Source: Strobilurus pachycystidiatus
Lineage: Eukaryota > Basidiomycota > Agaricomycetes > Agaricales > Physalacriaceae
Direction: 5' to 3'
DNA: 64,000 bases
Assembly: GCA_019915135.1 (NCBI GenBank)
Contig: JAHLMK010000001.1
Location: 2,046,001 to 2,110,000, forward strand
The notes under the pieces were generated by a model. That model made no database searches and was not told the origin of the DNA. It worked only from the letters and a program-made list of their open reading frames with translations. Below are positions 5,000-29,029 of this stretch, piece by piece. The translations under genes and the position numbers were made by a program. Position 1 is the stretch's first letter; each line of letters starts with the position of its first letter.

Positions 5000-5120
5000 G
5001 AATAGATTCGTGCTGGTCAGATTTCAAGTACAAATCTGCGCCCCATATTAGGACGACTGTATTCCAGAGGAGCTCACACTTACCCAGATGAGGGTGAAAA
5101 AGCAAACAGCAAGAGCACAG

Positions 5121-5208
5121 CCACCACCTCTTTTAGGACCGGTCCCGCCTTCGAGTCCGATCTACCACCACCTCTTTTAGGACCGGTCCCGCCTTCGAGT
5201 CCGATCTA
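5121..5208. repeat. Tandem 44-bp repeat, two identical copies
   Basis: Two exact head-to-tail copies of a 44-bp unit (5121-5164 and 5165-5208) containing CTCTTTTAGGACCGGTCC. They lie between the two MYND genes, just past the 3' end of the intact one. No coding or regulatory role is evident. Exact identity suggests a recent slippage duplication. Confidence 0.9.
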
Positions 5209-5248
5209 GCATACTACATTTCTTCGGCTGGTCTACGATAGTTTATCA

Positions 5249-7377: not shown

Positions 7378-7582
7378 GACGGCCACACCTGAAGACATTA
7401 GCGTTGCATTCGACGCGGGCACAAAACCCTCTTACCGATGAGAGACGGAAAAGACCCTTTCGATACACGTGGTCTCCAAATTCGGCGATCCCATCATCGG
7501 CCAATGTCTTCTCCTTACGCCCGTAGAACGGAAACTAACCGTATACATCGATCTGTTCTATCTAGAATCAAGAAATATGGTT

Positions 7583-11399: not shown

Positions 11400-12845
11400 G
11401 CAAGTGCGGTGTGGGTCGGAATGGAAAATTGACACCCCAAGCGAAGAAGTGCGAGCTCAACGCTTGCAGCAGATGCTGTGAGTTGACAGCAGACGCTCTC
11501 AGGCGTTGTCCCTTCCACGAACAACAGAAACAGCACAAGAGCCGACGAGATCAGGTCAAAAAGGCGCTTGACGTCGGGCGAGCTGCCTCGCACGACCACG
11601 TCAACACCGCCCCGGACGCCAACCCGACGCCGGCCGATCCCAACCCGACGACGGCTCCCGGCTGCAGCAGCGTTAAAAACATCGTGCTACCTTCAGATTT
11701 CGCCGGGAAAAATTGTGGTCCATATACCGTTGCCAGATTCATTGCGCAGGGAATACTCTCTCCGGAGGACTTGGGACCACGCCCAGCCAAACAGATCGTA
11801 CGGACACCGTCCTCTAACCCTAGGGAGGAGGCACGAAGACGAGAGAAAAAGGTCATATCCGTTCGAGTCTGGGACATGGTAAGCTCGTGGAATGAATGAC
11901 AAGCGAGTCTTCCTGACGAAGAACTCACTGTAGGACAAGCAGCTAGGCGGCATACGTGAGGTATTCGCAGGGGCTATGCATCCGTATCTGAATCTCTGGA
12001 AGGCGGCAGATGCGTTGACGGAAGCGATGCTTCGCAGCATTCGGGAAGATCTGCAGCTCGAACACGAGGGAGCCTTATTCCTGGTTTATCGAACGGCTCC
12101 CTCCCCGTCTTGGGTCCAAACCAACGCGCCGTACCCGGTAGCGTCAACGAATCGTCTCGACTTAGCCATTTCGAGACGTGGCTGCGTCGATGTACCACCG
12201 GTGCCGAAGCCGTGGCCTACGAGAGCTGGACGCACATGGTCCGGGCCACCGATGACTCCCACCACTCGAAGCGCTCAGCCGAACCACTTCTCGCCGACAA
12301 TGGTCGTCCCGACGAGTCTTCCGCTGTTTGTGACGCCCAAGGTGGTGGACGACACCACTTCAGACGACGATGACGAAGACCCATTTGCAATGCCCGTTCG
12401 CCAACCTTCCCAAGGGTGAGTACAGTGCAACCAGCCACGGCGAATGACAAACTCACGACCACCGTAGATTGCAGCGCGACGCCGACATGAGAACGAGCGA
12501 AATCGTCACGTAAGTACATCAGAACGCACTTAGATTGACGAGGCTCAACCGACACACAGAGACGTGACAACTATGGCGTCGGAGTCTTCTCGAGGACTGG
12601 ACGACATGCTGGGTTCCATGAGGCGGACAGACGAGATACGCAACATGCAACGAGGTCCAGGGAGCCGTAGCGACTTTCCTTTCGAATATGCGGTTGACAC
12701 CGTGAGCGTTCTCCGGATATGCACAGATATCTACGATGACGATGTAAGCAGGCCAGCTCTTCTGACGATGATAATTAGCTCACTCCGTAATAGAAAGACT
12801 GGCCGGCAATGAAATCGAGCACTTGGCACGACGCAGAACGTGCGC
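11400..12845 (+). pseudogene. Unrecognised gene, 5' half, split by retrotransposon
   Basis: Exons that join in frame: about 11400-11878, 11934-12415, 12468-12509, 12560-12743 and 12794-12845. The first has a Cys-rich start (CELNACSRCC...RRCPFHEQQ) and a basic stretch. The second contains FAGAMHPYLNLWKAAD and an acidic DDTTSDDDDEDPF tail. The exon from 12794 reads KDWPAMKSSTWHDAERA and stops abruptly at the LTR. Discounting the element and one copy of GCGC, it continues directly into KWNREYTKSVMLEG at 29030. I do not recognise the family. It is divergently placed to the Ulp1-like gene. The 5' end is not defined. The inserted element ends the transcript or greatly lengthens it, so the locus is marked as broken. 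Confidence 0.65.
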
Positions 12846-12963
12846 TGTCACTACGCGACAGAATTGCACTCAAAAAGCATTATTGGCAAACCATAAAATG
12901 ATATTCAACGAAAAACTACACAGAGACAATTACGTAATATTTCTTATTAGGGCATGAACGCCA

Positions 12964-13114
12964 TGACTCAACCACAGAACGCGCCGGAACATTCCGGAAC
13001 ATGTCGGAACATTCCGGAAAAGGCAAGAAAGGACCATTGAGTCAGTATGAGTCAGTATCAGTCAATTGTAGTCATAGATCTATTTATAGAATGTAGTCAG
13101 TAGTACTATATAAG
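12964..13114 (+). promoter_or_regulatory. LTR promoter: heat-shock-like and AP-1/Gcn4-like sites plus TATA box
   Basis: Seen directly: GAACATTCCGGAACA followed by GAACATTCCGGAA (about 12987-13019), that is alternating GAA and TTC units spaced by two bases, the form of a heat-shock element. TGACTCA at about 12964 and two TGAGTCA words at about 13038 and 13048 fit the Gcn4/AP-1 consensus. A TATATAAG box lies at 13107-13114. The order of upstream activator sites, then TATA, then a leader fits a stress-inducible promoter. That it responds to heat or starvation is inferred from the motifs only. The 3' LTR carries the same array (heat-shock-like part at about 28475-28507). Confidence 0.7.
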
Positions 13115-13270
13115 GGAGCTGAATCGGACCAAAAGGAGGTCAGCTACCCCAATACACAGCTTAGCTCTCAAACTCAGAACGCATTCTCATAAGCCTAAAG
13201 ACAAGATAATATCATTATCAAGTTAATTACAGCTTCCTCGCACACGCTTCTAATTGAAGAACAAGAATTC

Positions 13271-13369
13271 AAGCAAGTCAAGCAAGTTACGCAAGTCAAG
13301 CAAGTTCAGCAAGTCAAGCAAGTTCCGCAAGTCAAGCAAGTCAAGTTATACAAGTCAAGCAAGTTATCG
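13271..13369 (+). repeat. AAGTCAAGC minisatellite inside the LTR
   Basis: About 100 bp of imperfect tandem words AAGTCAAGC/AAGTTACGC/AAGTTCAGC. It lies downstream of the TATA box, so it is probably in the transcribed leader. It is repeated at about 28759-28857 in the 3' LTR. No function is visible. Confidence 0.85.
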
Positions 13370-13575
13370 TATTAAGGTGTTTAGAAGACTACAACGGTAG
13401 TCAGGCTAGCCCTTCAAGCAAGTCAAGTCAAGAATCACAAGCACGCCACAAGTCACCTAAAGCTATCTCGATAGCTCTCTAACCACCGAACTCAACTGTC
13501 ATCCAGGATCTGTTCTAAACACTTCCGTACCGTGACATTAATTTGGAGCCCACCGCGAGGGGGTAAATCACCCTT

Positions 13576-16500
13576 TTGCACCACAAACTTTGTATGCAAC
13601 AAAGTACCTCAGACTTTCCATCTGTAGTAGAGTCACCAGAATCATCAGTAGCAACTTCACCGGAAGAACGCTATCGACCACCCATTGATCCAGCTGAGTT
13701 ACAAGAACAAATATCAGCCTTGAATAATTTGCACAGTGCATTTTATTCCACACAACCCCAATCAAACTCCAGACATACTAGTTCCTCATCAGAAACTTCA
13801 TTGTCCATCACCAATTCACATTCACCAGCCGAAAACATGGCACTACCACTTCGAACCCCAGCCGACATCCCAATGGGAAATACACGCGACGCAATCAAGA
13901 CCTTTAAAGGCCAACCCCGTGATCTTAAACCTTTTTTCAAAAGACTTGAGCGTCTATTTCAACGATATGCAGTCAACACCAACCGAGAAAAAGTTGAAAC
14001 CATGATTGAATACATGGCACCCAAGGTGGTAAAATTCTTGGAAGGATGCAGTCACTATCGAACCCCCAATTATAATTTGTTAAAAGATGATATTATGGAA
14101 TTTTATGATGTTGATAAAATTAACAACTATTATCAGCCCAAGCATCTTAAAAAATTAACAAGTAGTTGGAGACACAGAGCAGTTCATCGACTAGATCAAT
14201 GGAAGAAATACCGTCGTGAATTTGTCACTATAGCAGGTTGGCTGCAAGGCCAGGGCAAACTAACAGACGAAGACTATAATGCATACTTCTGGCATGGCAT
14301 TCATAAGAAGCTAAGAAGAGATATCGAAAAAATTCATATCTCTCGGGACCCCGCGGCAGATCTGTCTCAGGCTTTTGCACATGAAACAGTAAATCAGATT
14401 GCTAGAACCATCCTAGAACGCAATAGGTTCGAATACAATCTAGCAGACACTGACTCTGATACTGAATCAGACAGTCCAGAAACAGCCACCGCATCAGAAG
14501 AAGACAACAGCGACTCAGACTCTGACGTCTCAAGTCGAGAAAAACGACATAAAAGTAAACGACGACTGCAATTGGCTTTGAAAGAAAAGAAAAGTATAAA
14601 CTTACAAGCCAATTCAAGCGAAAGTAAGAAAACTGAAGTCATCAAGGAGCCAGAAGAACTGGACGACATTATACATCGTTTAGGAAAACTATCCATTGAC
14701 GATCCACAATATGCCATCCATTATTCTTCCCTGTACTACCAGGCATTGCAGCTTAACCCTGAAGCAGTACGAATTTTGGCAGCACCACCAACTACTCAAT
14801 CCTCAAATAGAACACCAGGAACATCCAGTCTTACCACACCCAAAACACAATTAGGATATAGAACAGCACCATTAAGCAATACGACACAATATGCGCCACA
14901 ATATACGCCGCAAAATATAAACCAAACTATTCCGCGAAGCACAACCTGTTTTGGATGTCATGATCCCAATCACACCATACGGAACTGTCCAACCATCAGA
15001 GAAATGCTTGCAAAAAACCAAGTGTCACAAAAACCTGACGGACGCGTAGTAATGGCGGATGGAGGCCCTATAATGCGCTATAATAACGAAAACATAGCTC
15101 AAGCAGCACTACGTCAAATGGGTAACAAAGGAAATCAGAATCAAAACCAGACCACGTCCTACATTGAGGAACTCACATCCGGACATTACGGATCCAATTT
15201 CATAGAACTAGCTGGATCCGAAAGAGAGGAAAGTCAAATACTTCTAGGGACTGAACAAGAAACCTTGGATGAAAATAACAAAGGAAATACATCATCACCA
15301 GATTCAGAATCCGGAGAGGAATACCCTTCATTCTGGGTGAGCAATAAAGGAAATACGTACAATGCGGAAAGGCCAAAGCGAGCAGTTACTCGAAGTGCTA
15401 GAGCTCGCGCAATGGAAGAGCAGTTTAAGCCCCCTAGTACGTCCACCAGCCAGAAAGCCAAGCAAAACGTCAAAGCAAAGGCATCACCTAAAGTTATGCC
15501 GGAACCTGCAAAGAAATCAGTATTAATTCCTCACCCAACACAATTCCCGGAGCCTCTACCCATTGATGTACGTCTACCGGTAAGGCTGGAAAGGAAGGAT
15601 TGCATACCCATGGAAATTGAATCCACAGTAAAGAAATTCGAGGACCACACAACGGAAACTCGGGCAGAAGAACAAACTCATCAGCCTACAGAAGAACTCG
15701 CACGGAAACCTAAAGGAATGAAAAGGACCTCCGAAATCAGCAGAATGGCCGACAAAACTGATCTAATGAAAGTGATTTTGAATACAGACATAACGTTGAA
15801 AATGTTCGAACTATTAGGGGCCTCACAGGACATCAGCGAGGCACTAGCAGAACTATTGAAACGCAAAAATCAGAAATTAGATTTGTTAACATCGGAGAAA
15901 CAGAATAAAGAAATCCCTGTGCTATTACAAGTCGAGGAGGTATACGACCGAGGCGTCTTAATAACGATACCGTTAACAGCTAACGGAGTAACCGTGAATG
16001 CTATAGTCGACACAGGCTCCCAGCTAAACATAATAAAGAGGTCCGCGGCCGAAAATCTAGGGCTTGTCATAGATGACTCCGTTGTAACCACTATGCGAGA
16101 CGCAAGCGGAAACAACACCCAAATGAGAGGATTTATACGAGAGGCTGAGCTGGCACAAGGAGCCGGCCAAGTACGAACAAAAGCCAATTTATTTGTCGGA
16201 CTAGAGACATTTCCGTTTGAACTCCTACTCGGGCGACCTTGGCAACGAGGAAACATGATATGTATAGATGAGAGAAACGAAGGAACTTACCTGCTTTACA
16301 AGGACCCACAAGACCCGACGGGCAGCCGAAGACATGTATTCCGAGCCCTTGGAATCCCCAAACCATCCGAATACAGACTAATGCGAGTCAAAACTGAAGA
16401 AGAGGTCAGCAGTGGGCTGCATGACTTGGCCGAGGGAACATACGCCATCTATGTGCCGACGGGTATTGACGCGGGAAGCGCAGACGATAAAGATTTAAAT

Positions 16501-19500
16501 GGAACGGCAGCCCATGAGTCAGATGAGCGAGTCAATTCGAAGGGTAAAGAACATACCATAGGCGGCCACGCTCCTGCCGATGACTATGTCAGCGAAACCG
16601 ATACTAGAAACGCATTAGCTAACGCCGTGAATATTGTAAACAGTCAACATCATGAGTCAAGTACACAGCAAAGAATCACTCACCAAAGCCTAAAAGTATT
16701 CAGTCTACTAGTGACTGTACTCGCCGTACTGAAAAGAATCATCGAGATGATAGCCATACTGACGCATAACCACAAAAACGGACGGAAGAAAGACGATAAA
16801 ATAAAGACGAACGATGAAGAGAAAATTGCTGCCCTCGCCATCAGAGAGTCAGTCACACGATCACCACCAAACAAGAAAATGGCCGGGCCGGTATCCAACC
16901 TGTTCCGGTCCAACGCCCACAACCTTCAGCTAGTTGAACATCCCGACAATACCGTTGTAACCGTTTCACGACCGTCTGCCGCAGTAATTCTCCCTGCCCT
17001 TCCTGCCGACTATGACCGACGAAAATTCTTCTTTCCACAATTCCCGCTTGAAGGTCCGGTCTATGGGCCTGAACGCACCCCCGATGGCCACCGATACCGT
17101 TTGGGCGTGCTTCACCAGACCGCGGAACGCCAAACACAGGGCCGCTTCTGCGAACTGACGCGTGGAGTATATCAAGAATCTCCATTCCAGCCCCGCGAAC
17201 TCCCTTCCAGCTACCAGCCCACCCAGATCTTTGGCGAAAACTCCATTCACTTTCCACCAGAACGCGTCCACGACCGAACATACGAATCAGGTGTCATCCT
17301 CGGTGGCGCCCTGGTTCGAGGAGAATGCCCGCCCGTGCAGGGCTACATCTACTATCAGCTCAGTTACGGACCCGTTTTTCAAGACGAGCGTGCTGAAATG
17401 GAGAGGCGTTATGACGAAGGTATGAGAAATGCGGGCGACTGGATACGCCGAGTAAAGTCATACGTACCAAAGAGTATGGAACCGGGAGGCAGTCTCAAAG
17501 GCATTCGCGAGTCCTGTGCACGACGAACCGAAGACCCACCAGCCGTGGCTCCCGACATTATCGAGCTACCCAACGGCGTACAGAAGTCAATTAACGGATC
17601 GGTGTTCCCATATACTTCCCTCAACGAACTATCCATTCTGTCAAACGACGACCTCCACCAAATTCGCGCCGCCGTAATGCGGGTACAATCCGCCTATGCT
17701 CGCGGAGATTCGGAGGACAGTTGTAATGAGGAAGTAAGCCGTTCGGAGCACCCATGCTTCCACTCATTCGAGGCGCGCGGAATGGGCGCTATTTTTCCCG
17801 CTCATTCTGGCGACCATCGTGACTTGGTCTCAGGAGTAATTCTGGGAGCACAGTTGCGCTGCGCCGGAGGACAGATCAAGACCAGTCTATTGTCTTACAC
17901 TATGTTACCCCTCCTCCCTAATCTGCGACCCGCCATGTGGGACGTAGACTACGAACAAGACTCGGTCGATGCAAACAACGAACCACACATCGACCCTGCA
18001 CGAGGGCCCAATCTCAACGAAGACGTAGAAGAAGACGAAGAGGAAGACCCATGGGCAGACACAGACGAATCCTCGGAAGAAGAAGGTGCGTTCTACTCAT
18101 GCTCGTCATCAGTATTAATTAACCTAGTAATGAAAGATGATAAGCGAAGGAAGTACCGACGAAGCAAACCCCGAAGCAAGCTTCCGACCAAACCCTACGA
18201 GTCGGCATATAACAGCCCGGACTGCGACCCCTTCAAAGTCGTAGCACGAGGGGCAGTGGCTGAGACCATCTGGCTGGTACGCAGCGAAGTATTGCGATGG
18301 GGAGAGCCTAGCCTGCGCAACCACGCCCGAAGCCTATCGGCCGTCGGAATTTTCCAAATCTTCTCGAAACTAGGAATACGTATGCCGCCTCAAGAACGCA
18401 TGGAGGAAACCATTCGCAGCATGGTCCTCCTCGACGCCCAGATCCGCGCCCCCGATAGGGACGCCCACAAAGCCCACGCGTTTGTCTACCAAGTGGACGT
18501 GTTTACCTATAGCACCCTGGCGGCCGACCTCATGAACTTAGGATTCCATGTGGCTTCTAAACCACATTCCACTACCGCTAAGGAAGCACCTAATTGTTCT
18601 ACTCGTTTCAACCCCGCCCCAACCCGACGTCCAGACTCAGTAGTAGCACCACCTACCGTGAAGCTTGCCGTCATTGCGGACATCCTAACCCATCTATGCG
18701 GACATCTACGGGCATGGGAGAAAAAGGATACTGGGAAAGACGAAACCATCGACTACCCGTTCGAATTCATCAAACTGCACGGGAGAGTCTGGATCGCGCT
18801 TGAAGCGGTACGACTTAGTGACCATGCCATCCTCAGGACTGGCGTACTCCTGGACGCTGTTTACGAAGCCGGCAAAGGACCAGCGCTTATGGGCCCCGCT
18901 CTTATAGCCCTGGTTTACGGATACGAACCCAATCTCGACGACGTCCGAGCAGCGGGACTGTTGACAGGTCTCACCAAGGCGACCGCGAACGAGCATTTTA
19001 CCAAGCAGACAATCGGGGACACGGGAGACTTTGTACGAGAAGTAGCTGAAAGCCGAGAATGGGTTTCGGAGGACGTCTATCCCTCCCTGGTACACGGAAC
19101 ACTCGATGAAGACGGCGTACCTCGGTTGTCTTCTTCGAACCCTACGGATGCTACCTTTAGAGGAGTAACCTTCGATAAAGGCCACATCTATCACCATCCC
19201 GTCCTGTACCCGCGCACTCCACAATATTTCAGACGACCGCCACACTTCTTCAACTTTTATTACTTGGCCAAGCCCCCAACCAACCGAGAATCGTTACAGC
19301 TGCACAAAAGCGCTACCTTCGACACTCGGGCGAACATTTATTATCCACCCGCGATGCGCAAAGCTGGCATACTCGCACCTGATCTTTCCGTAGTGGATCC
19401 CTTGCGTAAGAAGCTCCTACTTGAAGCAACAGTATCACTAAACAATTTTTTAGAAAAAGTGTTGCATCCACCTACCAGCTCAGAATGGGAAGTCGTTTGC

Positions 19501-22464
19501 GCTAAACTGTTGAACAATCACCCGGTACCCGTCAACCACCTACAACCAGACTACGAGGAGGACGACTTGCTCTGTCTGTGGGCAATGATCTGCGAGTCAC
19601 TAAAACGGTATCGCCACATTAACGACAATGTACTGCTAAATGCTGTCATGCCGCCCACCCGATTTGACCCCCTCTACATGCATGTACTACGGGCCACGGC
19701 AACCACTGCCATATCCCTGCCGGCCATTCAGCTGGCGCATCTGGTCATGCAGCAGCTGGTCATGCCCGACGTTGTCCTATACCAATACAACGACAGGGGA
19801 ACCGAACGCGCCGCACAAGGGACACTTCATCTATGGATGATAAACGGCAACACGCTACCAGACGGCTCGGACGCACGACATCGTAACCCTACCTTTGAGA
19901 GCCAGTACCCAGAGGACAAACACAACCGATATTGGGAAACGATACAAGGTGTAGACGAAGACGGTTTGACGCGGGGAGATTTCACCCAACTAATGGAACG
20001 AGTCAACGATGACGCAGAGATGTTTCTGGACCTCCAGAACCAACACCTGGCTTCTCATGGACGCATTCCCGAGCCACCACCTGTTCCTAGCGTGCGAGGA
20101 GTAGACACTCCCTCTTCCATTTTCGATGCCCCACGACAACAGCCGCACTCGCCCGGGATACCCGTCATTCCCCGCTTGGTACCCGCCCTGTCCGACCAAT
20201 TCCTGCAATCAGTAGTAGAGGTGGTCAGACAGACACAGCGGTTCGTGGACGCCCTAGGCGAGGAAGAAGAATCCATTGACGTGGACGTAGCCCGACGCTA
20301 CGACCTGGACAGCGACTATACCTTCAAGCTGCCCAGCAGACATGTTGGAAACATGGAACTCGAAATGGGAACTATGATCAACGCGCTGCTGGTACAAGAC
20401 ATGGAGCCACAACTCATGGACATTCATGCATTCTATGTCTTTGTCCCTACAGTCTTCGATCCGAAACCCGACACAACCATTTGCCCCAAACCTGTCCCGG
20501 ATAACGACCACGGTAATCCGCCGGCTGACTTGCACGAGAAAGATGCGCCAGAAGGTAACATCCATAGCTTCAAACACAGTATACAATCACTAATCAAGAA
20601 CGACACAGGACCAGACACAGATACAGTGGAAATCGATCTTTGCGCGACCATACAGACCGCCGTTGCGGAAACCTGCATGACTGTGTTTCTAGGAACCCAG
20701 AACACATTCGAGAAAACCCCGCACGACGCAACCACAAGAATGATGGAACACCTCGAAGAGAACACGAGGGATTCAGGTAATCATTCATGTCATTTTTGCG
20801 CAACCAAACACATGCTTATCCGGTGCGGGACAGGATCCACCGCCGTCGCGATTCATGATCAAGATGTTCCCCGCTGGGACCTTCTGCGGCGAGAAGCACT
20901 GGGACACCATATTCTAGCCAACGTTGCACAAAGCGCTAAGCGCAAGACACAGTCACCCATCCATCAACCAGCACCCAAACGAATACACGCCTTGCCCAAC
21001 GCCGAATCGTGGGGAATGGAATACGAGCTAGAGTACCCACCCGACGATGCCAATATGGAAAGCGACGAAGAGTGGCAAGCGAATGGTCCGGAACTATCAG
21101 TATTCCTAACACGACATACCAACACCAGCAGCCCTGAAATCGACGAAGACACGCTCTCGTCAACGGACGCGCTATCGGTGTACAGCCACGACATGGACAT
21201 CGCCGAAATAGTAAACCTATCGGCTACTCTTTCCACTGACGTCGTCCTCCCTCCCTCGCTCGATGACCGACGTTACGCCATACCTATCCGCGGAATGGAA
21301 GCTGACGGCAACAATTATCGGGACTCTTTTACCATTCGCATCCATACTACCGTACCCCCTTCCTTCAGAGACGATGAAGGAATCGTGGCCAACACCATTG
21401 AAGCCGAGAGGAGGTACCAGCATGGGGATATTCTACCCCGCCAGCGGGAAGTTGTAATTTTCCATGAAGCACAAGATAATCATCCACTCCGGTATCCCGG
21501 TAACGGGTTTCTCAACCCGGAAGTAATCAACTGCTTCACCTGGTCAAAGGAGGAGGAAAAGGCAATAGGACTATCCTTCCGGCTTGCAGATGAGCACCTT
21601 TTCACGGCCTCTCTCCAACTTGATGACTGGCCGATGGCTGACGGGACCATCACCCAGCTAAACCGGCGTCGAGTCATTGAAGGAATCGAATCGCTCGCCA
21701 AACCCATGTACGGCGACAATACCATTGACGAGATTGAGGGCCTTCACAATGACAGTATCACCACCTACGCCGACCTTCTCACATACGGCCGCGGCAGCAT
21801 GACGCTAGCAATTGAGGAACCGTACACGCGGCGATGCAAGGATATACTTTTGGCTAGGCTTTTCCCCGAGCGCGCCGAAACACTTCGGGATCCTGACTCC
21901 GGATACAGCAGACAGTACATCCGAACGGATTGTTCCACGTCACTGGAAGTCAGGCTTTCACCATGGTCGAAACGGATGGGAGCGCTGAGGTATAGCCGAC
22001 AGTACCTGGTCCAAGGTATGAATCGCTTAGCCCAGTATCTCCTCACGACAAAGTGGCGCAACGTAATAGACGGTTTTCCGGAGACCGACGACACGCACCA
22101 TTTTTTTCGTTGGCATTGCGTTTTTTTTCGACTGCTCGATAACATCCTTCACACAGTCCAAGGCTTTCACGCACTCTGCCTTCACGGCGGATACATTAGG
22201 AACGGGAGAATGGAGACTCGAGCGCCGTTGGTTCCGCAGAACCCGCTGCTCACCTGGCAAGAAGATGAATATCTTCATCACTCCGCGCTCACACTTGAAG
22301 CAGGCGGACACCACGAGCTCGCGAATACGCTCCGGTCCATCCGCTACCGAAGACTCTTGCTTCCAAAGGAGGTTTACAGGCTCCTCGAGCATGGATACCT
22401 CGACACCCTGGACACCTTCGACGATTCCGGCTATAGGCGCGGTTTTATGGCTGACAAGCTATAA
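13576..22464 (+). CDS. gag-pro: Gag-protease polyprotein with about 2000-aa unknown extension
   Basis: One open frame of 2962 aa. Residues about 105-260 resemble a Ty3-type capsid region (LKPFFKRLERLFQRY). A canonical CX2CX4HX4C zinc knuckle (CFGCHDPNHTIRNC) starts at residue 458. An aspartic protease follows, with the active-site DTGS at residue 812 and a downstream LLGRPW block. From about residue 900 to the end there is no family I recognise. That part contains a hydrophobic stretch (about 1040-1060), two SGVILG-type segments (nt about 17287 and 17830), acidic runs, and a knuckle-like CX2CX3HX4C at residue 2405. Gag-PR is A-rich at third positions whereas the extension looks richer in G/C, so it may have a different origin. 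The start is the first ATG after the LTR leader that opens the frame. Normal Ty3 Gag-PR is several-fold shorter. Confidence 0.9.
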   Translation: MHHKLCMQQSTSDFPSVVESPESSVATSPEERYRPPIDPAELQEQISALNNLHSAFYSTQPQSNSRHTSSSSETSLSITNSHSPAENMALPLRTPADIPMGNTRDAIKTFKGQPRDLKPFFKRLERLFQRYAVNTNREKVETMIEYMAPKVVKFLEGCSHYRTPNYNLLKDDIMEFYDVDKINNYYQPKHLKKLTSSWRHRAVHRLDQWKKYRREFVTIAGWLQGQGKLTDEDYNAYFWHGIHKKLRRDIEKIHISRDPAADLSQAFAHETVNQIARTILERNRFEYNLADTDSDTESDSPETATASEEDNSDSDSDVSSREKRHKSKRRLQLALKEKKSINLQANSSESKKTEVIKEPEELDDIIHRLGKLSIDDPQYAIHYSSLYYQALQLNPEAVRILAAPPTTQSSNRTPGTSSLTTPKTQLGYRTAPLSNTTQYAPQYTPQNINQTIPRSTTCFGCHDPNHTIRNCPTIREMLAKNQVSQKPDGRVVMADGGPIMRYNNENIAQAALRQMGNKGNQNQNQTTSYIEELTSGHYGSNFIELAGSEREESQILLGTEQETLDENNKGNTSSPDSESGEEYPSFWVSNKGNTYNAERPKRAVTRSARARAMEEQFKPPSTSTSQKAKQNVKAKASPKVMPEPAKKSVLIPHPTQFPEPLPIDVRLPVRLERKDCIPMEIESTVKKFEDHTTETRAEEQTHQPTEELARKPKGMKRTSEISRMADKTDLMKVILNTDITLKMFELLGASQDISEALAELLKRKNQKLDLLTSEKQNKEIPVLLQVEEVYDRGVLITIPLTANGVTVNAIVDTGSQLNIIKRSAAENLGLVIDDSVVTTMRDASGNNTQMRGFIREAELAQGAGQVRTKANLFVGLETFPFELLLGRPWQRGNMICIDERNEGTYLLYKDPQDPTGSRRHVFRALGIPKPSEYRLMRVKTEEEVSSGLHDLAEGTYAIYVPTGIDAGSADDKDLNGTAAHESDERVNSKGKEHTIGGHAPADDYVSETDTRNALANAVNIVNSQHHESSTQQRITHQSLKVFSLLVTVLAVLKRIIEMIAILTHNHKNGRKKDDKIKTNDEEKIAALAIRESVTRSPPNKKMAGPVSNLFRSNAHNLQLVEHPDNTVVTVSRPSAAVILPALPADYDRRKFFFPQFPLEGPVYGPERTPDGHRYRLGVLHQTAERQTQGRFCELTRGVYQESPFQPRELPSSYQPTQIFGENSIHFPPERVHDRTYESGVILGGALVRGECPPVQGYIYYQLSYGPVFQDERAEMERRYDEGMRNAGDWIRRVKSYVPKSMEPGGSLKGIRESCARRTEDPPAVAPDIIELPNGVQKSINGSVFPYTSLNELSILSNDDLHQIRAAVMRVQSAYARGDSEDSCNEEVSRSEHPCFHSFEARGMGAIFPAHSGDHRDLVSGVILGAQLRCAGGQIKTSLLSYTMLPLLPNLRPAMWDVDYEQDSVDANNEPHIDPARGPNLNEDVEEDEEEDPWADTDESSEEEGAFYSCSSSVLINLVMKDDKRRKYRRSKPRSKLPTKPYESAYNSPDCDPFKVVARGAVAETIWLVRSEVLRWGEPSLRNHARSLSAVGIFQIFSKLGIRMPPQERMEETIRSMVLLDAQIRAPDRDAHKAHAFVYQVDVFTYSTLAADLMNLGFHVASKPHSTTAKEAPNCSTRFNPAPTRRPDSVVAPPTVKLAVIADILTHLCGHLRAWEKKDTGKDETIDYPFEFIKLHGRVWIALEAVRLSDHAILRTGVLLDAVYEAGKGPALMGPALIALVYGYEPNLDDVRAAGLLTGLTKATANEHFTKQTIGDTGDFVREVAESREWVSEDVYPSLVHGTLDEDGVPRLSSSNPTDATFRGVTFDKGHIYHHPVLYPRTPQYFRRPPHFFNFYYLAKPPTNRESLQLHKSATFDTRANIYYPPAMRKAGILAPDLSVVDPLRKKLLLEATVSLNNFLEKVLHPPTSSEWEVVCAKLLNNHPVPVNHLQPDYEEDDLLCLWAMICESLKRYRHINDNVLLNAVMPPTRFDPLYMHVLRATATTAISLPAIQLAHLVMQQLVMPDVVLYQYNDRGTERAAQGTLHLWMINGNTLPDGSDARHRNPTFESQYPEDKHNRYWETIQGVDEDGLTRGDFTQLMERVNDDAEMFLDLQNQHLASHGRIPEPPPVPSVRGVDTPSSIFDAPRQQPHSPGIPVIPRLVPALSDQFLQSVVEVVRQTQRFVDALGEEEESIDVDVARRYDLDSDYTFKLPSRHVGNMELEMGTMINALLVQDMEPQLMDIHAFYVFVPTVFDPKPDTTICPKPVPDNDHGNPPADLHEKDAPEGNIHSFKHSIQSLIKNDTGPDTDTVEIDLCATIQTAVAETCMTVFLGTQNTFEKTPHDATTRMMEHLEENTRDSGNHSCHFCATKHMLIRCGTGSTAVAIHDQDVPRWDLLRREALGHHILANVAQSAKRKTQSPIHQPAPKRIHALPNAESWGMEYELEYPPDDANMESDEEWQANGPELSVFLTRHTNTSSPEIDEDTLSSTDALSVYSHDMDIAEIVNLSATLSTDVVLPPSLDDRRYAIPIRGMEADGNNYRDSFTIRIHTTVPPSFRDDEGIVANTIEAERRYQHGDILPRQREVVIFHEAQDNHPLRYPGNGFLNPEVINCFTWSKEEEKAIGLSFRLADEHLFTASLQLDDWPMADGTITQLNRRRVIEGIESLAKPMYGDNTIDEIEGLHNDSITTYADLLTYGRGSMTLAIEEPYTRRCKDILLARLFPERAETLRDPDSGYSRQYIRTDCSTSLEVRLSPWSKRMGALRYSRQYLVQGMNRLAQYLLTTKWRNVIDGFPETDDTHHFFRWHCVFFRLLDNILHTVQGFHALCLHGGYIRNGRMETRAPLVPQNPLLTWQEDEYLHHSALTLEAGGHHELANTLRSIRYRRLLLPKEVYRLLEHGYLDTLDTFDDSGYRRGFMADKL

Positions 22465-24913
22465 AGTAAGCGCCATTATTATTCCTTCTGATACAAACTC
22501 ACACCATAATAGCAAACCGCAGACTGAAACCACAAATCGTTCCACATGCCCTCACCATTTCGCCCCGTCGTCACGAACTAATGACCCTATGCAACCCAAC
22601 TCTATCATCGTCTCATCGCCTGTACCCCTGTACCATCACACCCCACTCAGCCTAGCTTACCGTTCGCGTGCGCCTCTGACGCAGTACTTATTATCTGAAT
22701 CCCCACTCAACCCTACGCAGTCCATATTTAACGCCCATCCGGCATTGTACTTACTATTCGGAACTAACGTTCCAACAAATCACCCACTTCCGCAACTGAT
22801 CCTTGTTATTCTTGTGTACTTCCTGTTTTTACCAGTGATTAGCTACAAATGTATACAATCATTGGGAAACTTGGGATCGAAGACATTCGCTGGTCTCAAA
22901 ACTCAGGGTAAATTGAAGATGCAGAACCACTTCAATTTAAAAAGTACCCCGGAAGGAGGATGGTCAGGCCTAGTCATGCATACATACGAAACTAGTAGAC
23001 CAGAAGTGCGGATCGACACAGGAATGTATTATACAGACGAGTATAAGTTTGAGGAAGACGACGTGTTGATCTGCTGTGCAGAAAACAACCCATATCCAGA
23101 AACGACGGACAACATATTCACTATGTACAAAACAGTGGATCGAAAAGTCAAGCCGGTCTCAGGCACCTTTCCAGAAGAGGCCAGGGTATTACGAACCATA
23201 CCAAAGGACCCCTTACTATCACTCGAAACTCTACCATTCAATCCACCAGAGTTTATCCCTACAAAACGTTTAACTACGGACCGAATGGACAGCCTAGAAG
23301 TCAACCAGGAAGGTTTTCTATTACCAGAAGAAGAAAAGCTTTTCAAATATATCCTGCGGCTGCATGAAAAAACACTTCCGTACGAAGAGAAAGATCGTGG
23401 CACATTGAGTCGGGAATACTTCTCAGACTATATAATGGCCACCGTGCCACATGTTCCTTGGGAATACAGAAACATACCAATACCACCAGGAATCAGAGAC
23501 AAAGTAGTAGAACTACTCAAAGGAAAAATAGCAGCTGGAGTATACGAACCAAGTCAATCATCCTATCGATGCAGATGGTTTTGCGTACTGAAGAAAAACG
23601 GTACACTACGCATGATCCATGATCTACAACCACTCAACAAAGTATCCATACGAGATGCAGGACAACTACCCATCATAGACGATTTTGTAGAACCATTTGG
23701 AGGAAGTCAGTGCTTCACAGTATTTGATCTATTTTGGGGATTTGACGCAAGATTAGTCCATCCTAAATCACGAGACCTAACAGCATTCTATACGCCTCTA
23801 GGATTGCTACGACTCACTGCACTACCAATGGGATATACCAATTCACCAGCAGAATTTCAAAACTGCATGACATTCGTCTTACAACCTGAAATTCCAGAAT
23901 CAGCCAATATATTCATCGACGACTTAGGAATTAAAGGACCTCGAACAGCATACCCTGATAAACATGGTCAACCAGAACGCCTTAAAGAAAATCTTGGAAT
24001 TAGGCGTTTTATATGGGAACATGCCCAAGACGTTCATCGTGTCATGCACCGTGTAGAGTGTGTCGGTGCTACATTTTCACCTAAGAAAGTTCAAATGTGT
24101 CGACCAAAAGCAGTAATAGTAGGACAAACATGCAGTGCGGAGGGTCGTACACCAGATCAAGAGAGAGTATCCAAGATCCTGAAATGGCCAACACCCATCA
24201 CTGTTACCGAAGTCAGAGGCTTTCTGGGACTATGTGGCACAGTACGAATCTGGATAGAAAATTATTCACAATTAGCACGACCACTCACAGAACTGACACG
24301 AGCAACACAAGACTTTATCTGGACAGAAAAACGCAATCAAGCCTTCGAAACGTTAAAAGCCAAAGTAGCAGACACAACAGCGCTTCGTGCAATCGACTAC
24401 AGGTCCAAAGAACCTATAATCCTGTCAGTAGACACCAGCTATATTGCTGTAGGAATGATTCTTTCACAAAAAGATGATCGAGGCATAAGGCGACCAGCTC
24501 GATATGGATCATTACCCTTAAATTCAGTCGAATGCAGATATTCCCAGCCAAAACTAGAACTATATGGGCTATATCGAGCATTGCGACATTGGCGAATATA
24601 CCTAATCGGAGCACCCTCGCTAACGGTAGAAATGGATGCCAAATACATAAAGGGAATGCTTAACGAACCGGATCTACAACCAACCGCAGTAATCAACAGG
24701 TGGATTCAAGGAATTTTAATGTTTGACTTCCAACTAGAACATGTACCAGCTACCAGATTCAAAGGGCCAGATGCACTATCCCGACGAAGAGCAGCACCTG
24801 GAGAAGAACCAAATGAACTGCAACATGAGGATGACGAATGGCTGGACAACATAGCACTCATGACCTTGATTCCAAGCCTGGACCAATTTCAAAGCAACGG
24901 ACAACAACTATAG
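22265..24913 (+). CDS. pol: Reverse transcriptase-RNase H
   Basis: The open frame overlaps the end of the Gag frame by 200 nt, in the +1 register. The first plausible start inside it is the ATG at 22589. A hydrophobic segment (LILVILVYFLFLPV, about residues 177-191) precedes the enzyme. RT motifs include LRMIHDLQPLNK, the ALPMGYTNSP block and the catalytic FIDD (Asp at residues 552-553), where the usual YxDD tyrosine is Phe, as in other Ty3 elements. RNase H follows with SVDTSYIAVGMIL (Asp at about 723), KLELYGLYRAL and VEMDAKYI. A chromodomain is not seen. How RT is expressed relative to Gag (frameshift, reinitiation or spliced message) is not settled by the sequence; a GTAAGC...ATAATAG intron-like stretch sits just after the Gag stop at about 22466-22510. 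Confidence 0.92.
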   Translation: MNIFITPRSHLKQADTTSSRIRSGPSATEDSCFQRRFTGSSSMDTSTPWTPSTIPAIGAVLWLTSYKVSAIIIPSDTNSHHNSKPQTETTNRSTCPHHFAPSSRTNDPMQPNSIIVSSPVPLYHHTPLSLAYRSRAPLTQYLLSESPLNPTQSIFNAHPALYLLFGTNVPTNHPLPQLILVILVYFLFLPVISYKCIQSLGNLGSKTFAGLKTQGKLKMQNHFNLKSTPEGGWSGLVMHTYETSRPEVRIDTGMYYTDEYKFEEDDVLICCAENNPYPETTDNIFTMYKTVDRKVKPVSGTFPEEARVLRTIPKDPLLSLETLPFNPPEFIPTKRLTTDRMDSLEVNQEGFLLPEEEKLFKYILRLHEKTLPYEEKDRGTLSREYFSDYIMATVPHVPWEYRNIPIPPGIRDKVVELLKGKIAAGVYEPSQSSYRCRWFCVLKKNGTLRMIHDLQPLNKVSIRDAGQLPIIDDFVEPFGGSQCFTVFDLFWGFDARLVHPKSRDLTAFYTPLGLLRLTALPMGYTNSPAEFQNCMTFVLQPEIPESANIFIDDLGIKGPRTAYPDKHGQPERLKENLGIRRFIWEHAQDVHRVMHRVECVGATFSPKKVQMCRPKAVIVGQTCSAEGRTPDQERVSKILKWPTPITVTEVRGFLGLCGTVRIWIENYSQLARPLTELTRATQDFIWTEKRNQAFETLKAKVADTTALRAIDYRSKEPIILSVDTSYIAVGMILSQKDDRGIRRPARYGSLPLNSVECRYSQPKLELYGLYRALRHWRIYLIGAPSLTVEMDAKYIKGMLNEPDLQPTAVINRWIQGILMFDFQLEHVPATRFKGPDALSRRRAAPGEEPNELQHEDDEWLDNIALMTLIPSLDQFQSNGQQL

Positions 24914-26376
24914 AAAACGCACAGGAGCCAGGCACAAACCAAACCTCTCCTCGACAAAATACAGCCGATCAAGAATTACATGAAATCTACAACTATTTAA
25001 ACAGTGACGAAAGCTCAAAACTGCAGCTGAGTCAGCAATTCTCAACTAATCAGCAAAGAAAACGCTTTATCAAACGAACACTACAATATTTCGTGCATAA
25101 TAAACGCATGTTCAAAAGAACACGGCAAGGACATCCTCTTAAAGTCATATTTGACCCACAAACTCGACCAACAATCTTAGAATGGGCTCATGACAAACTA
25201 GGACACAGAGGAATCCATACAGTTATGGAACTGCTACGTCAACGTTTCTACTGGCCATACATGCATAAAGATGTTCACGATTTCATTGCATCATGCCACG
25301 AATGTCAAATCCGAAATCTAATTCAAGTACAAATACCACCTACTATATCACGACCCAACCATATCATGCAAAAGGTATTCCTGGACGTAATGTTCATGCC
25401 ACCCAGCGGCGGATTCATAGCCATCGTGGCCATCAAAGACGATTTGACCGGAATCACTGAAGCACGAGCATTGCGACAGGTCAAAGCAGAGGCCATTGCC
25501 AAATTCCTGGAAGAAGACGTATACTACAGATACGGTGTTATAGGAAAAGTCATAACCGACAATGGATCCGAAGTACAAGGAGCCTTCCGACAACTGGCTG
25601 CTCGACTTGGAATTCCCCACGTAACCATAACACCATATAACAAACACGCCAACGGACAAGTAGAACGCGGCCACTATATTCTCCGAGAAGCAATCATTAG
25701 ATCTTGCGAAAAAGACGCAACTACCGGTGCTCCCAAACAGTGGCACACCAAATTGCAATTAGCTTTATTCGCGGACCGAGTCACAGTGAATTTGGCCACT
25801 GGTTATACACCTTACTATTTACTACACGGAATTGAACCAGTCCTACCCGTGGATCTACTCGATTTCACATGCGCAGAGGATGTATTTCCATTCAACCTCA
25901 CTACAGCACAGCTGCTTGAAAAACGAATTAGGCAGCTGGAACGCAGAGAAGAAGACATAGTCAGCGCCGCGGAAACATTACACCGAAGCCGATTACGAAA
26001 TCGGGAGCAATTTAATAAGCGGTATTGGCATTGTCTCCAGAAAAGGCAATACGAGATCGGGGAATTGGTCCTAGTCAGGGACGTGCGATACGCAACAAGT
26101 TACCAAATTAGTAAAAAGACCAACCCGAGGTACCTAGGGCCTTACCTAGTTCGATATCGATCCCAAAAAGGAAATTACCAACTAGCAGAGCTAGACGGAA
26201 CAGTTTTACAAGACCTCATAGCAGGATTTCGAATTATACCATACATTACACGTCGAGACGGACTCATCAGACTATTAGAGAATGCAGACACACGTCCCAG
26301 CGGCTCCGAAGACTATGCCGGCACCGATGACGAGAACGGAGAGATGACCGAGGATGATTCAGCCACGGGCGCCTAA
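24838..26376 (+). CDS. int: Integrase
   Basis: The frame overlaps the RT-RNase H frame by 76 nt but lies in the -1 register, so RT and integrase are not one continuous reading frame as in most Ty3 pol genes. It has an HHCC zinc domain (GHRG...H...CHEC). The DDE core has Asp at residue 183 (FLDVMFMP), Asp at 241 (ITDNGSEV) and Glu at 276 (GQVERGH); the 34-residue gap between the last two is the classic DD35E spacing. A GPYLVRYRS-type C-terminal block follows. The tail is acidic (about residues 490-512) and lacks an evident chromodomain. The enzyme inserts the cDNA copy into host DNA in the nucleus. Confidence 0.92.
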   Translation: MAGQHSTHDLDSKPGPISKQRTTTIENAQEPGTNQTSPRQNTADQELHEIYNYLNSDESSKLQLSQQFSTNQQRKRFIKRTLQYFVHNKRMFKRTRQGHPLKVIFDPQTRPTILEWAHDKLGHRGIHTVMELLRQRFYWPYMHKDVHDFIASCHECQIRNLIQVQIPPTISRPNHIMQKVFLDVMFMPPSGGFIAIVAIKDDLTGITEARALRQVKAEAIAKFLEEDVYYRYGVIGKVITDNGSEVQGAFRQLAARLGIPHVTITPYNKHANGQVERGHYILREAIIRSCEKDATTGAPKQWHTKLQLALFADRVTVNLATGYTPYYLLHGIEPVLPVDLLDFTCAEDVFPFNLTTAQLLEKRIRQLERREEDIVSAAETLHRSRLRNREQFNKRYWHCLQKRQYEIGELVLVRDVRYATSYQISKKTNPRYLGPYLVRYRSQKGNYQLAELDGTVLQDLIAGFRIIPYITRRDGLIRLLENADTRPSGSEDYAGTDDENGEMTEDDSATGA

Positions 26377-26382
26377 ATTTTC

Positions 26383-27084
26383 TTGTCCGCAACAGTCATG
26401 GCCAGCAGCCAGAGCACGTTCCAGTACGCACTCTACTTCCCCTCAGCATTAGGACGACTAATACAAAACACTGCCAGAATCGAATACTACAGCTTGCCAG
26501 AAATGCCAGTCATCACTACGGCCGTGCACGCATTTTGGGTCGGCGGAAATGTCCCCATAATTTACGATCCTCAACAACCAGGCGATATCATCATCAGAAA
26601 TGTATTTGCTGGAAGCGTCGAGCTAGAAGACGGGCAGCTCCAGGAGCACTTCATAGCCGATATTCCCTACCTCACGCCCCCCATCGAAACTACCTCGCGC
26701 GCCAATGCTCGCTACGTTGAGATGGACTACGTCTATGACCGATTGACAGGAGAGGTCCTTTTGGGATGCGTCGCAGCCAAGCCCGGACTCCGTGTGCATC
26801 TCCTGTGCCACGACGCTCGCTTAGGCAACTTCATCATCACAAACATCGACAAGAGTGGAGGAGACGGCACTCGCTATGCGTACATCATGTGTCTTGACGA
26901 CACCCCCCAGTTTGCCTATCATTCCTACCAGCGTGTAGTCGTCGCCAACGAGCACATCGATTATATTTTGGGAATGGAAGCCGATCAAGCAATGCCCGAC
27001 GAGAAGCGATGGATGAGAGTAGCCGAGAAACATAGGGAGACCCTCGATATGATATTCATGGACAAACGCGTACGATACACATAG
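26383..27084 (+). CDS. Accessory ORF 4 of the retrotransposon
   Basis: An open frame of 233 aa right after integrase (7 bp after its stop), in the slot where some retroelements carry an env-like gene. It has no signal peptide, no clear membrane segment and no family I recognise. It contains LRVHLLCHDARLGNFIITN, which resembles FFYGHNGVRMGNFRIDG in the next ORF, so the two may share an origin. A second in-frame Met occurs at residue 6. Its third positions look C-rich compared with RT and integrase. Confidence 0.7.
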   Translation: MSATVMASSQSTFQYALYFPSALGRLIQNTARIEYYSLPEMPVITTAVHAFWVGGNVPIIYDPQQPGDIIIRNVFAGSVELEDGQLQEHFIADIPYLTPPIETTSRANARYVEMDYVYDRLTGEVLLGCVAAKPGLRVHLLCHDARLGNFIITNIDKSGGDGTRYAYIMCLDDTPQFAYHSYQRVVVANEHIDYILGMEADQAMPDEKRWMRVAEKHRETLDMIFMDKRVRYT

Positions 27085-27405
27085 CGTACAGATAGACAAA
27101 AAACCACCACTCAGAAAAATAAATACGGTGGACAACGAAAAACGTGACCAACAACGGACGTGAAAAGTAAACAAAAGGGACAACAACACTTAGCAAAGCA
27201 CCATCATCATGCCAAACGAAAGCAACATGTTCCGCCGCCTACTGCGCATTATCAAAAGGCAAACAGAAGGAACTGATGAACCAACGCTAGACGAGAACGC
27301 TCAGGAGATTGAAGTACGCGCGCTTCACTGACAAATTAACCCGCTTGACAAAGATCATAGCCACCGTCGGATCTCCCCACTTATGAGCAATCTCTAAACC
27401 ACTAT

Positions 27406-28221
27406 ATGCAACGATGGGCTCTTCCTCGCCCACCTAGATTCCCACAGCCCGCACGTTTGTACCAACCTCGTCGCCTTCGCCTACCTGAATTATCTCTCGA
27501 TGCCGCCCAATTTCTTGGCGAGCTCCTTCCAGTTTTACGAACCACTCCCAGCACCGAACACCTCGTCAATGTCTTCCATGACGAATTAGTCAATAGCGCT
27601 CGCCTGTATACGGACCAGTATAGACGCACACAGGACGGAATGCTCGAGGCTGAACCAACCATCACATCGCCCTCCAGCGCCGTTCCATCCCTGATTCCTA
27701 GCCATGAAATCGAGACCATCACCGGACACTCCATCCCATACATATCCGTCACAGAGGGACCTCCATCCTATCGCGGTATTGATCGCCTACACAACGAGCT
27801 CACATACGAAGTAGACCTATCCTATCTGGCATACATTCCCAATCGTCAGCTGTTCCTCACTGTTACATATTCTCAGCATGCCCTTGGACCATTTTTCTAT
27901 GGGCATAATGGCGTTCGCATGGGGAATTTTCGTATCGACGGATTTTACCAATGTCGGGAAGGGATGGCCATCCTGTCATGCAGTAGCTGCAACATAGAAG
28001 GCGAACCTACTACCACCACGCACCCCAGATTCCTCGCAGTCCCTTACGAGTTCCTCTGCTCTCGTTATCAGCGAATGATGACTGAGCGCCACATTGATCC
28101 GAACGTTTGGCAACAAGTACCAGCCTATGCACTCGAATTGGTGGATGCGCAGGCGGAAGCTGGAAAAGGGACATGGTGGAGCGCCGCTACACCAGAGCTG
28201 ATCAGGATGTTTGAGAATTGA
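27406..28221 (+). CDS. Accessory ORF 5 of the retrotransposon
   Basis: An open frame of 271 aa that ends 112 bp before the 3' LTR. The basic, proline-rich N-terminus (PRPPRFPQPARLYQPRRLR) is followed by a helical part, then RMGNFRIDGFYQCREGMAIL, similar in pattern to the previous ORF. There are a few cysteines (LSCSSCN) but no complete zinc motif. There is no membrane segment and no recognised family. The 320 bp between ORFs 4 and 5 also hold a short frame beginning MPNESNMFRRLLRI, possibly a first exon. Confidence 0.68.
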   Translation: MQRWALPRPPRFPQPARLYQPRRLRLPELSLDAAQFLGELLPVLRTTPSTEHLVNVFHDELVNSARLYTDQYRRTQDGMLEAEPTITSPSSAVPSLIPSHEIETITGHSIPYISVTEGPPSYRGIDRLHNELTYEVDLSYLAYIPNRQLFLTVTYSQHALGPFFYGHNGVRMGNFRIDGFYQCREGMAILSCSSCNIEGEPTTTTHPRFLAVPYEFLCSRYQRMMTERHIDPNVWQQVPAYALELVDAQAEAGKGTWWSAATPELIRMFEN

Positions 28222-28333
28222 ATAAGTTTGTCGCATGTTTTTTTGATATCAAATGCACATAGTTCTTGGAAAATCGATTTTGTGTTTGCCAATAGTTGAT
28301 CGGGGACGATCAAATTTATCAGTGCCCCGCGAA

Positions 28334-29025
28334 TGTCACTACGCGACAGAATTGCACTCAAAAAGCATTATTGGCAAACCATAAAATGATATTCAACGAA
28401 AAACTACACAGAGACAATTACGTAATATTTCTTATTAGGGCATGAACGCCATGACTCAACCACAGAACGCGCCGGAACATTCCGGAACATGTCGGAACAT
28501 TCCGGAAAAGGCAAGAAAGGACCATTGAGTCAGTATGAGTCAGTATCAGTCAATTGTAGTCATAGATCTATTTATAGAATGTAGTCAGTAGTACTATATA
28601 AGGGAGCTGAATCGGACCAAAAGGAGGTCAGCTACCCCAATACACAGCTTAGCTCTCAAACTCAGAACGCATTCTCATAAGCCTAAAGACAAGATAATAT
28701 CATTATCAAGTTAATTACAGCTTCCTCGCACACGCTTCTAATCGAAGAACAAGAATTCAAGCAAGTCAAGCAAGTTACGCAAGTCAAGCAAGTTCAGCAA
28801 GTCAAGCAAGTTCCGCAAGTCAAGCAAGTCAAGTTATACAAGTCAAGCAAGTTATCGTATTAAGGTGTTTAGAAGACTACAACGGTAGTCAGGCTAGCCC
28901 TTCAAGCAAGTCAAGTCAAGAATCACAAGCACGCCACAAGTCACCTAAAGCTATCTCGATAGCTCTCTAACCACCGAACTCAACTGTCATCCAGGATCTG
29001 TTCTAAACACTTCCGTACCGTGACA
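28334..29025 (+). repeat. 3' LTR, 692 bp
   Basis: The same length and sequence as the 5' LTR, with a C at 28742 where the 5' LTR has T. It is bounded by TGTCACT and GTGACA and followed by the GCGC target copy. A purine-rich GGGGACGA lies about 37 bp upstream but is a weak polypurine tract. Confidence 0.97.
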
Positions 29026-29029
29026 GCGC

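Follow-up and report, generated by a model that had tools for sequence, protein, structure and literature searches.

The window analyzed here, a stretch of 64,000 nucleotides from the basidiomycete Strobilurus pachycystidiatus (contig JAHLMK010000001.1), contains a young long terminal repeat (LTR) retrotransposon of the Ty3/gypsy type. The element is 16,180 bp long (12846-29025), about twice the usual length of Ty3/gypsy elements, and carries a module of about 1,860 residues between its protease and its reverse transcriptase (RT). The module, called EXT below (16879..22461, starting at MAGP), was delimited by copy alignments and by selection, and lies in the Gag frame. Codon comparisons indicate that EXT is under purifying selection and has been kept in two deeply split clades of the element. 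It is undescribed as far as the searched libraries and literature show. A preliminary description of the window had proposed an oversized Ty3 element with a long unrecognized extension after the protease, and the LTRs, the open frame and the Pfam results confirm this.

The membership in Ty3/gypsy is based on paired LTRs with TG...CA ends, a short target duplication, and the order protease, RT, RNase H (RH) and integrase, which Pfam confirms. All features of the element are on the plus strand. Comparison of the LTR pair places the 5' LTR at 12846..13537, with ends TGTCA...TGACA, and the 3' LTR at 28334..29025; each is 692 bp long and they differ by one mismatch. The target duplication is the 4-bp GCGC at 12842-12845 and 29026-29029. 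ORF1 (13594..22464; ORF scan, Pfam) encodes Gag, DUF4100, the protease, a linker and EXT. Its frame is open from 13567 to 22464, with the first ATG at 13594, and has 2,962 codons counted from a TTG; residue numbers in the linker and EXT refer to this stop-to-stop frame (13567 = 1). Gag contains CFGCHDPNHTIRNC (14947..14988), a zinc knuckle by its motif; Pfam gives no match to it. DUF4100 (PF13352), a domain of fungal range, matches at 15346..15870 (Pfam, residues 585-759 from the ATG). The aspartyl protease (PF13650) is at 15967..16158, with DTGS at 16009; the best match among the aspartyl-protease families covers residues 792-855 from the ATG (E 2e-08), and nothing in ORF1 besides these families and DUF4100 exceeds the Pfam cut-off.

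About 2,060-2,100 codons follow the protease without a Pfam match above cut-off, in agreement with the roughly 2,060 codons first reported. Residues about 960-1104 form a fast-evolving linker (16444..16878; pN/pS, the ratio of nonsynonymous to synonymous differences, is 0.64-1.0 in codon comparison of clade-1 copies), so that the conserved extension begins near Met1105 (window 16879). The length first given for the extension is thus real as an open frame, and its conserved part is the stretch of about 1,860 residues. ATGGCC at Met1105 is kept in all eight aligned clade-1 copies. The linker also contains a hydrophobic stretch near 16687-16761. A conserved read-through of the ORF1 stop was considered and rejected: the long frames of copies L011, L016 and L025 end near residues 2580-2625, but at different codons. 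These ends fall in one shared linker, at 9851 in L011, 9854 in L016 and 9785 in L025 (reverse strand).

The spread of EXT was followed in the assembly (51.8 Mb, 61 contigs) with a query of 667 residues, which gave 18 matches at no fewer than 14 loci. The best matches per locus fall into two groups, at 49-75% identity besides the window itself (clade 1) and at 25-28% (clade 2). A clade-2 query recovers the identical 14 loci, and the mutual identity of the clades is 25-29%. Uninterrupted frames of 2,312-3,109 codons are present at 8 of the 14 loci. A search with RT-RH, in which 85 of 328 first-look candidates were scored, yielded 14 loci at 79-100% identity and 71 further loci at 45-50%. Thirteen of the 14 close pol loci adjoin EXT loci; the remaining one, C3:2833395 (L035), keeps the C-terminal part of EXT at 75% identity and is itself a 15th EXT locus. 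Copies that are otherwise intact and lack the extension were looked for, and none is found among the 14 loci with pol identity of at least 79%, all of which have EXT or its remains. One EXT locus, C3:2429386, has no adjoining pol match. At two of the 71 distant pol loci (L036 and L037), the 6-9 kb upstream of RT give no tblastn match to the window EXT at E 0.1, a search that a strongly diverged EXT could escape.

Selection was assessed in seven clade-1 copies (21 pairs; 15 pairs at residues 900-1000). The pN/pS ratio is 0.26-0.35 in four segments of EXT and 0.53-0.81 in four less conserved ones; directly after the protease, at residues 900-960, it is 0.09. The EXT ratios are only rough because synonymous change is saturated in many comparisons. 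For nine of the 45 possible pairs the ratio of substitution rates, dN/dS, was examined; it is 0.05-0.31 where computable, dS being saturated for many of the EXT comparisons. Neutral evolution of the extension was looked for, and both ratios speak against it. EXT is beyond chance, because long frames are open at 8 of 14 loci and pN is well below pS in most segments. The preliminary description had argued that an intact frame in a young element implies selection on the product. That argument is weak by itself; the selection it pointed to is found, and the evidence for it comes from purifying pN/pS in diverged copies.

Within EXT, four clear and perhaps seven tandem copies of one small module are recognized. 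The clear repeats are R1 (17149..17406; modelled as 17074-17442), R2 (17704..17961), R3 (18304..18561) and R4 (18724..18981). Their six pairwise scores are 25.8-41.2, compared with a mean of 10.2 and a maximum of 17.7 in 105 reversed controls. R5 (19654..19911) and R6 (20269..20526) are weaker, and R7 (20629..20886) is weak and poorly conserved in the window copy. A PPPVP motif (20074..20088) is invariant in 10 of 10 aligned EXT sequences. The repeats are followed by a conserved C-terminal domain of about 350 residues (21418..22461), which is 38-39% identical across clades. EXT is acidic, with 264 D+E versus 190 K+R. AlphaFold predicts one repeat as a helix plus four strands (pLDDT 76.8, pTM 0.63; alignment of 60 rows, six repeats from ten copies). 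The modelled repeat has no confident structural match, and the module may be a small fold without a close solved relative. A prediction on 1,191 EXT residues with ten rows was set aside, since its pLDDT of 38 is too low for a claim on the fold.

Searches for relatives of EXT were negative. No homologue was found among about 5.8 billion proteins with a single ORF1, an R1-R2 profile or a C-terminal profile, nor in IMG/VR; both are weak tests, as the collections may hold few fungal proteins and no positive control was run. EXT has no Pfam match above cut-off and no NCBIfam match at E 1, and sequence searches against solved structures returned nothing below E 0.7. PHROGs gave one weak match, to ORF5. 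Among the matches listed in a literature search on extra domains, ORFs or dUTPase in LTR elements, as far as these sources were available, there is no such module in a fungal Ty3 element. The accessible part of a survey of fungal LTR retrotransposons mentions additional domains only generally and for complex, multiply inserted elements (PMC3248453).

The clade-1 copies appear to be mosaics. Their LTRs are 91.6-98.6% identical to those of the window in ten LTR matches, and most of the 3' half is 90-98% identical in long matches of six copies (67-73% in L026). Most clade-1 matches to the middle of the element (positions about 3,600-10,060) have 64-78% identity. Synonymous differences follow the same pattern. 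Relative to the window, pS is 0.08 (L011), 0.14 (L020) and 0.55 (L025) over gag codons 1-100; 0.17-0.19 (L009, L011), 0.57 (L020) and 0.93 (L025) over codons 100-400; and 0.5 to saturation from later gag onward. In pol, comparison of four clade-1 copies with L019 shows pS back at 0.00-0.26 past about codon 600. Relative to the window it is 0.03-0.09 in ORF4 and 0.01-0.26 in ORF5, in five copies each. L026 is an outlier, with pS of 0.64-0.91 from pol codon 401 and 0.76-0.84 in ORF4 and ORF5. Per 692 sites, the LTR pairs differ at one position in the window, one (plus 18 gap positions) in C1:3350 and none in C2. These near-identical pairs show that copies with very different cores inserted recently. 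By these comparisons, anciently diverged cores (later gag, protease, EXT and the start of RT) sit in the young clade-1 copies between ends that are alike (LTRs and early gag on one side; most of RT to integrase, ORF4, ORF5 and LTR on the other). The pattern indicates recombination between lineages at both ends, which explains the mosaic. The cores may stay apart through selection, or because diverged cores cannot recombine; either may fit.

The junction of ORF1 and pol bears on how EXT is expressed. The ORF2 frame (22070..24913; ORF scan, Pfam) holds a hydrophobic linker, RT and RNase H, and overlaps ORF1 by about 395 nt in the window. Pfam places RT (RVT_1) at 23588..24109, with FIDD at 23912, RNase H at 24320..24709 and the integrase (H2C2, rve) at 24838..26376. 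RT and integrase had been described as separate ORFs. RT-RH and integrase form a single ORF of 1,339-1,441 aa in L010, L015, L019, L021 and L026, so the break at 24838-24913, between RNase H and integrase, is a defect of the window copy. The integrase had been called DD35E; the spacing in the window translation counts as D-34-E. No chromodomain was found behind the integrase core, where Pfam to E 1 gave H2C2 models, rve and a weak SH3_Tf2-1 only.

A motif search predicts an intron of 47 nt (22466..22512), with GTAAGC one base past the ORF1 stop, a branch-like CTCAC and TAG. A GTRNGY donor occupies this place in all 12 copies with a located ORF1 end, in both clades, and shuffles of ten copies reproduce it with a frequency of at most 0.0025 per copy. 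If the branch motif is relaxed, a YAG at 47-56 nt gives a length of 2 mod 3 in 11 of 12 copies; in the window a length of 57 nt (0 mod 3) is possible too, and for L034 the sole fits are 45 and 49 nt. Eight of ten copies pass with a strict branch motif, and shuffles yield the downstream part in 3-15%. No conserved splice donor was found farther upstream inside ORF1. Because the ORF1 stop precedes the donor and the intron length is 2 mod 3, splicing of the predicted intron cannot join ORF1 to pol. In nine of ten copies the ORF2 frame stays open over the 400 nt that follow ORF1, where the other two frames have 2-12 stops. Pol codons 101-300 are nearly unconstrained (pS 0.53-0.69, pN 0.45-0.53). 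The linker before RT contains a hydrophobic segment resembling a transmembrane segment (22787..22843, mean hydropathy 2.41), which is present in 10 of 11 copies and missing from the broken copy L024. Ten copies were scored for the peak hydropathy of the linker, which is 1.81-3.02 and in six of them exceeds that of all 300 shuffles. The simplest reading of these sequences is that the stretch after ORF1 is translated into a hydrophobic linker before RT.

Two further ORFs had been noted behind the integrase. Both are present: ORF4 (26398..27084) was found in clade 1 only, being absent from its place in two clade-2 copies read, and ORF5 (27406..28221) occurs in both clades, its C-terminal half being about 41% identical to a clade-2 relative. 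Neither has a Pfam match above cut-off. Each is full length in seven of nine clade-1 copies with the 3' half read; the count for ORF4 leaves C5:2005, where it lies across two pieces, unjudged. ORF4 and ORF5 were considered as copies of the EXT repeat, which we do not claim (scores of 16.4 and 10.6; reversed controls reach 14.4 in this comparison and 17.7 in that of the EXT repeats). Comparison of the two as possible paralogues gave a segment score of 23.9 with a probability of 27%, and a probability of 33% over the whole ORFs; a high-scoring pair of ORF4 segments (O4a-O4b) was discarded, since their overlap produces the score.

We consider it most likely, with a probability of about 0.42, that EXT is a structural protein made at the level of Gag and released by the protease, that Pol is produced by a +1 shift on unspliced RNA, and that the mosaic arises by recombination at the ends. 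The position of EXT upstream of the ORF1 stop argues for production at the Gag level, and hence for a structural protein; the repeats, the size and the lack of enzyme signatures point the same way. EXT would match Gag, and not Pol, in the amount made, and would be cut free by the element protease at the fast-evolving linkers. The repeat modules would then assemble, on or around the particle or the assembly site, into a scaffold or shell. Translation of unspliced RNA would reach Pol from ORF1 by shifting +1, relative to ORF1, into the ORF2 frame that overlaps it. Splicing of the short intron would put pol out of the ORF2 frame and leave an mRNA that serves ORF1 alone. Recombination would be confined to the alike ends, with template switching between RNAs packaged together as its probable route. 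The large module of the preliminary description thus stands as a selected tandem array with a C-terminal domain in the Gag frame; the host-interaction role and the undescribed "system" proposed for it are not borne out.

The mosaic can also be read in another way. It is possible, though rather unlikely, that EXT, as a protein of several modules made at the level of Gag, is an identity core resembling a capsid or receptor serotype, with many old variants per genome, around which one successful shell of LTRs, Pol, ORF4 and ORF5 is recombined again and again, and that the spliced intron switches Pol off. We give the same low standing to the idea that EXT is a recognition or exclusion module, one that sets which RNAs or proteins of the elements can cooperate, or defends against related elements or host silencing, so that rare cores are favoured and core diversity persists as the shared shell spreads through it. 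Seven clade-1 copies with cores near synonymous saturation nevertheless have one or both ends in common, three of the seven are very young by LTR pair or sequence, and the diverged core takes in the zinc knuckle and the protease as well as EXT. Against recognition, pN/pS of EXT is below 1 in every segment tested, with no positive selection over a whole segment, and selection is unneeded if template switching requires identity and diverged cores cannot recombine. A serious rival, to which we give a somewhat smaller chance, is that EXT (or ORF5) handles unspliced genomic RNA, for example in nuclear export. An intron is predicted at a matching place in both clades, so unspliced RNA must be exported and packaged. 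There is also a precedent in CERV of Cer1, a Ty3/gypsy element of C. elegans: this lineage-restricted extra protein, which lacks obvious homologues beyond the nematodes, is reported to be needed for exporting the intron-containing genomic RNA in its unspliced form (PMC10309623). The analogy is strained by the nature of the proteins, since CERV has 517 aa, is made from a spliced mRNA and has its C-terminal half behind pol, whereas EXT has about 1,860 aa, is in the Gag frame and is acidic. No RNA-binding domain is recognized in EXT.

The remaining readings are less probable still. EXT might be a surface protein of the envelope type, anchored by the hydrophobic segments that flank it. This would fit the segment before RT, which 10 of 11 copies have and whose RT side carries the greater net positive charge in nine of ten. 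The post-protease hydrophobic stretch is present in 7 of 10 ORF1 copies, all seven of clade 1, and Burro, in the portion of its report consulted, has an in-frame env between gag and pol (PMC6431247). However, no sequon is conserved in at least seven of eight clade-1 copies (the window has 7, versus a shuffle mean of 8.4), just four cysteine columns are conserved in at least nine of ten copies, the basic-looking residues after the first hydrophobic stretch are on the wrong side for a lumenal EXT, and Pfam gives no match to an envelope domain. The lack of sequons sets this reading low. It is equally improbable that EXT acts in replication, as an enzyme or cofactor, or derives from a host protein that was captured. 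LTR elements of basidiomycetes and rotifers are reported to have a dUTPase at this place, between protease and RT (PMC5408684, PMC6431247), but dUTPase PF00692 was not found by Pfam in ORF1, A1 or the 60 repeats, and the list for those repeats at E up to 10 names 12 other families. A captured host gene was rejected, as EXT searches of the fungus's own genome match element copies only, and the Pfam and NCBIfam results above also count against an enzyme. That the long frame is due to chance, an assembly chimera or an element nested in a normal Ty3 copy is refuted: the missing recognized domains are its only support, and EXT is equally placed in two clades at 14 or more loci, appears to be under purifying selection and has frames of more than 2,300 codons at 8 of 14.

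The ends of the element provide information on its insertion. Flanks were read at the window and at L009, L010, L011, L015, L017, L018, L019 and L020 (the flank of L024 ends after GCG), and RCGC (GCGC or ACGC) is present in 10 of 10 full flanks at seven clade-1 loci. The duplication is GCGC in the three copies with both ends. GCGC occurs 283 times among the 47,820 bases that flank the element in the window. These flanks suggest a preference for RCGC targets in clade 1; the candidate LTR starts of clade-2 loci L029 and L030 have ACGT and GCGG, not RCGC. A candidate primer-binding site (13544..13560) is identical in eight of eight copies read. Its last 15 bases have their complement at 123 places genome-wide, so other element families probably share the primer. 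The primer tRNA was not identified with this 15-base pattern, in which one base belongs to the added CCA; a scan of 3 of the 123 places shows no tRNA.

Elsewhere in the window, a 526-aa ORF on the minus strand (5731-7311) has a MYND zinc finger. A long minus-strand ORF (31176-33482), with a PT-repeat match under its cut-off, contains four overlapping copies of a 36-bp direct repeat (31893-32078).

The common view of LTR retrotransposons is that of machines reduced to Gag and Pol. An extension of about 1,860 residues with no recognized enzyme domain, kept through a deep split, would imply that these elements need something not yet known, for example in the architecture of their particles, in the handling of RNA or in competition with one another. 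Because of the mosaic, a single genome allows a test of which portion of such an element selection keeps different, and why. We judge the mosaic and the predicted intron to be as interesting as the EXT module.

Several known elements resemble this one in part. Some LTR elements have a dUTPase between protease and RT, which Pfam does not find here, and gypsy elements with env encode a recognizable glycosylated envelope, whereas EXT has no Pfam match and no conserved sequon. The Ogre/Tat elements of plants are also very large. In Ogre of pea and Medicago, as described in the excerpt available, the interval between Gag-protease and RT-RH-INT is an intron that is spliced from a subset of transcripts (PMC6317226). 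Splicing there permits the whole polyprotein, whereas here a stop lies upstream of the predicted donor (12/12) and the length is 2 mod 3 (11/12). The Ogre intron is at the protease/RT junction, and the intron predicted here, in 12 of 12 copies, is behind EXT; that excerpt does not place an ORF between protease and RT in Ogre. Burro, a giant gypsy-like element of planarians, shares a giant polyprotein, extra domains and an env-like region in frame between gag and pol. By the same partial account, its domains are recognizable (env, dUTPase-like, MATH, BCL-2), whereas EXT matches none and consists partly of tandem repeats (PMC6431247). Cer1 is likewise a gypsy-type element with an extra lineage-restricted protein and an intron-containing genomic RNA, the intron being predicted in our case (PMC10309623, in part); CERV differs from EXT in size, place and expression by splicing, and the two are set apart by description, not by sequence. 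The closest framework is that of fungal Ty3/gypsy elements (Metaviridae), with which the element shares LTRs, a zinc-knuckle Gag, the order protease, RT, RH and integrase, and a 4-bp target duplication. It is unlike them in the module of about 1,860 residues between protease and RT in the Gag frame, the two ORFs behind the integrase and the predicted intron.

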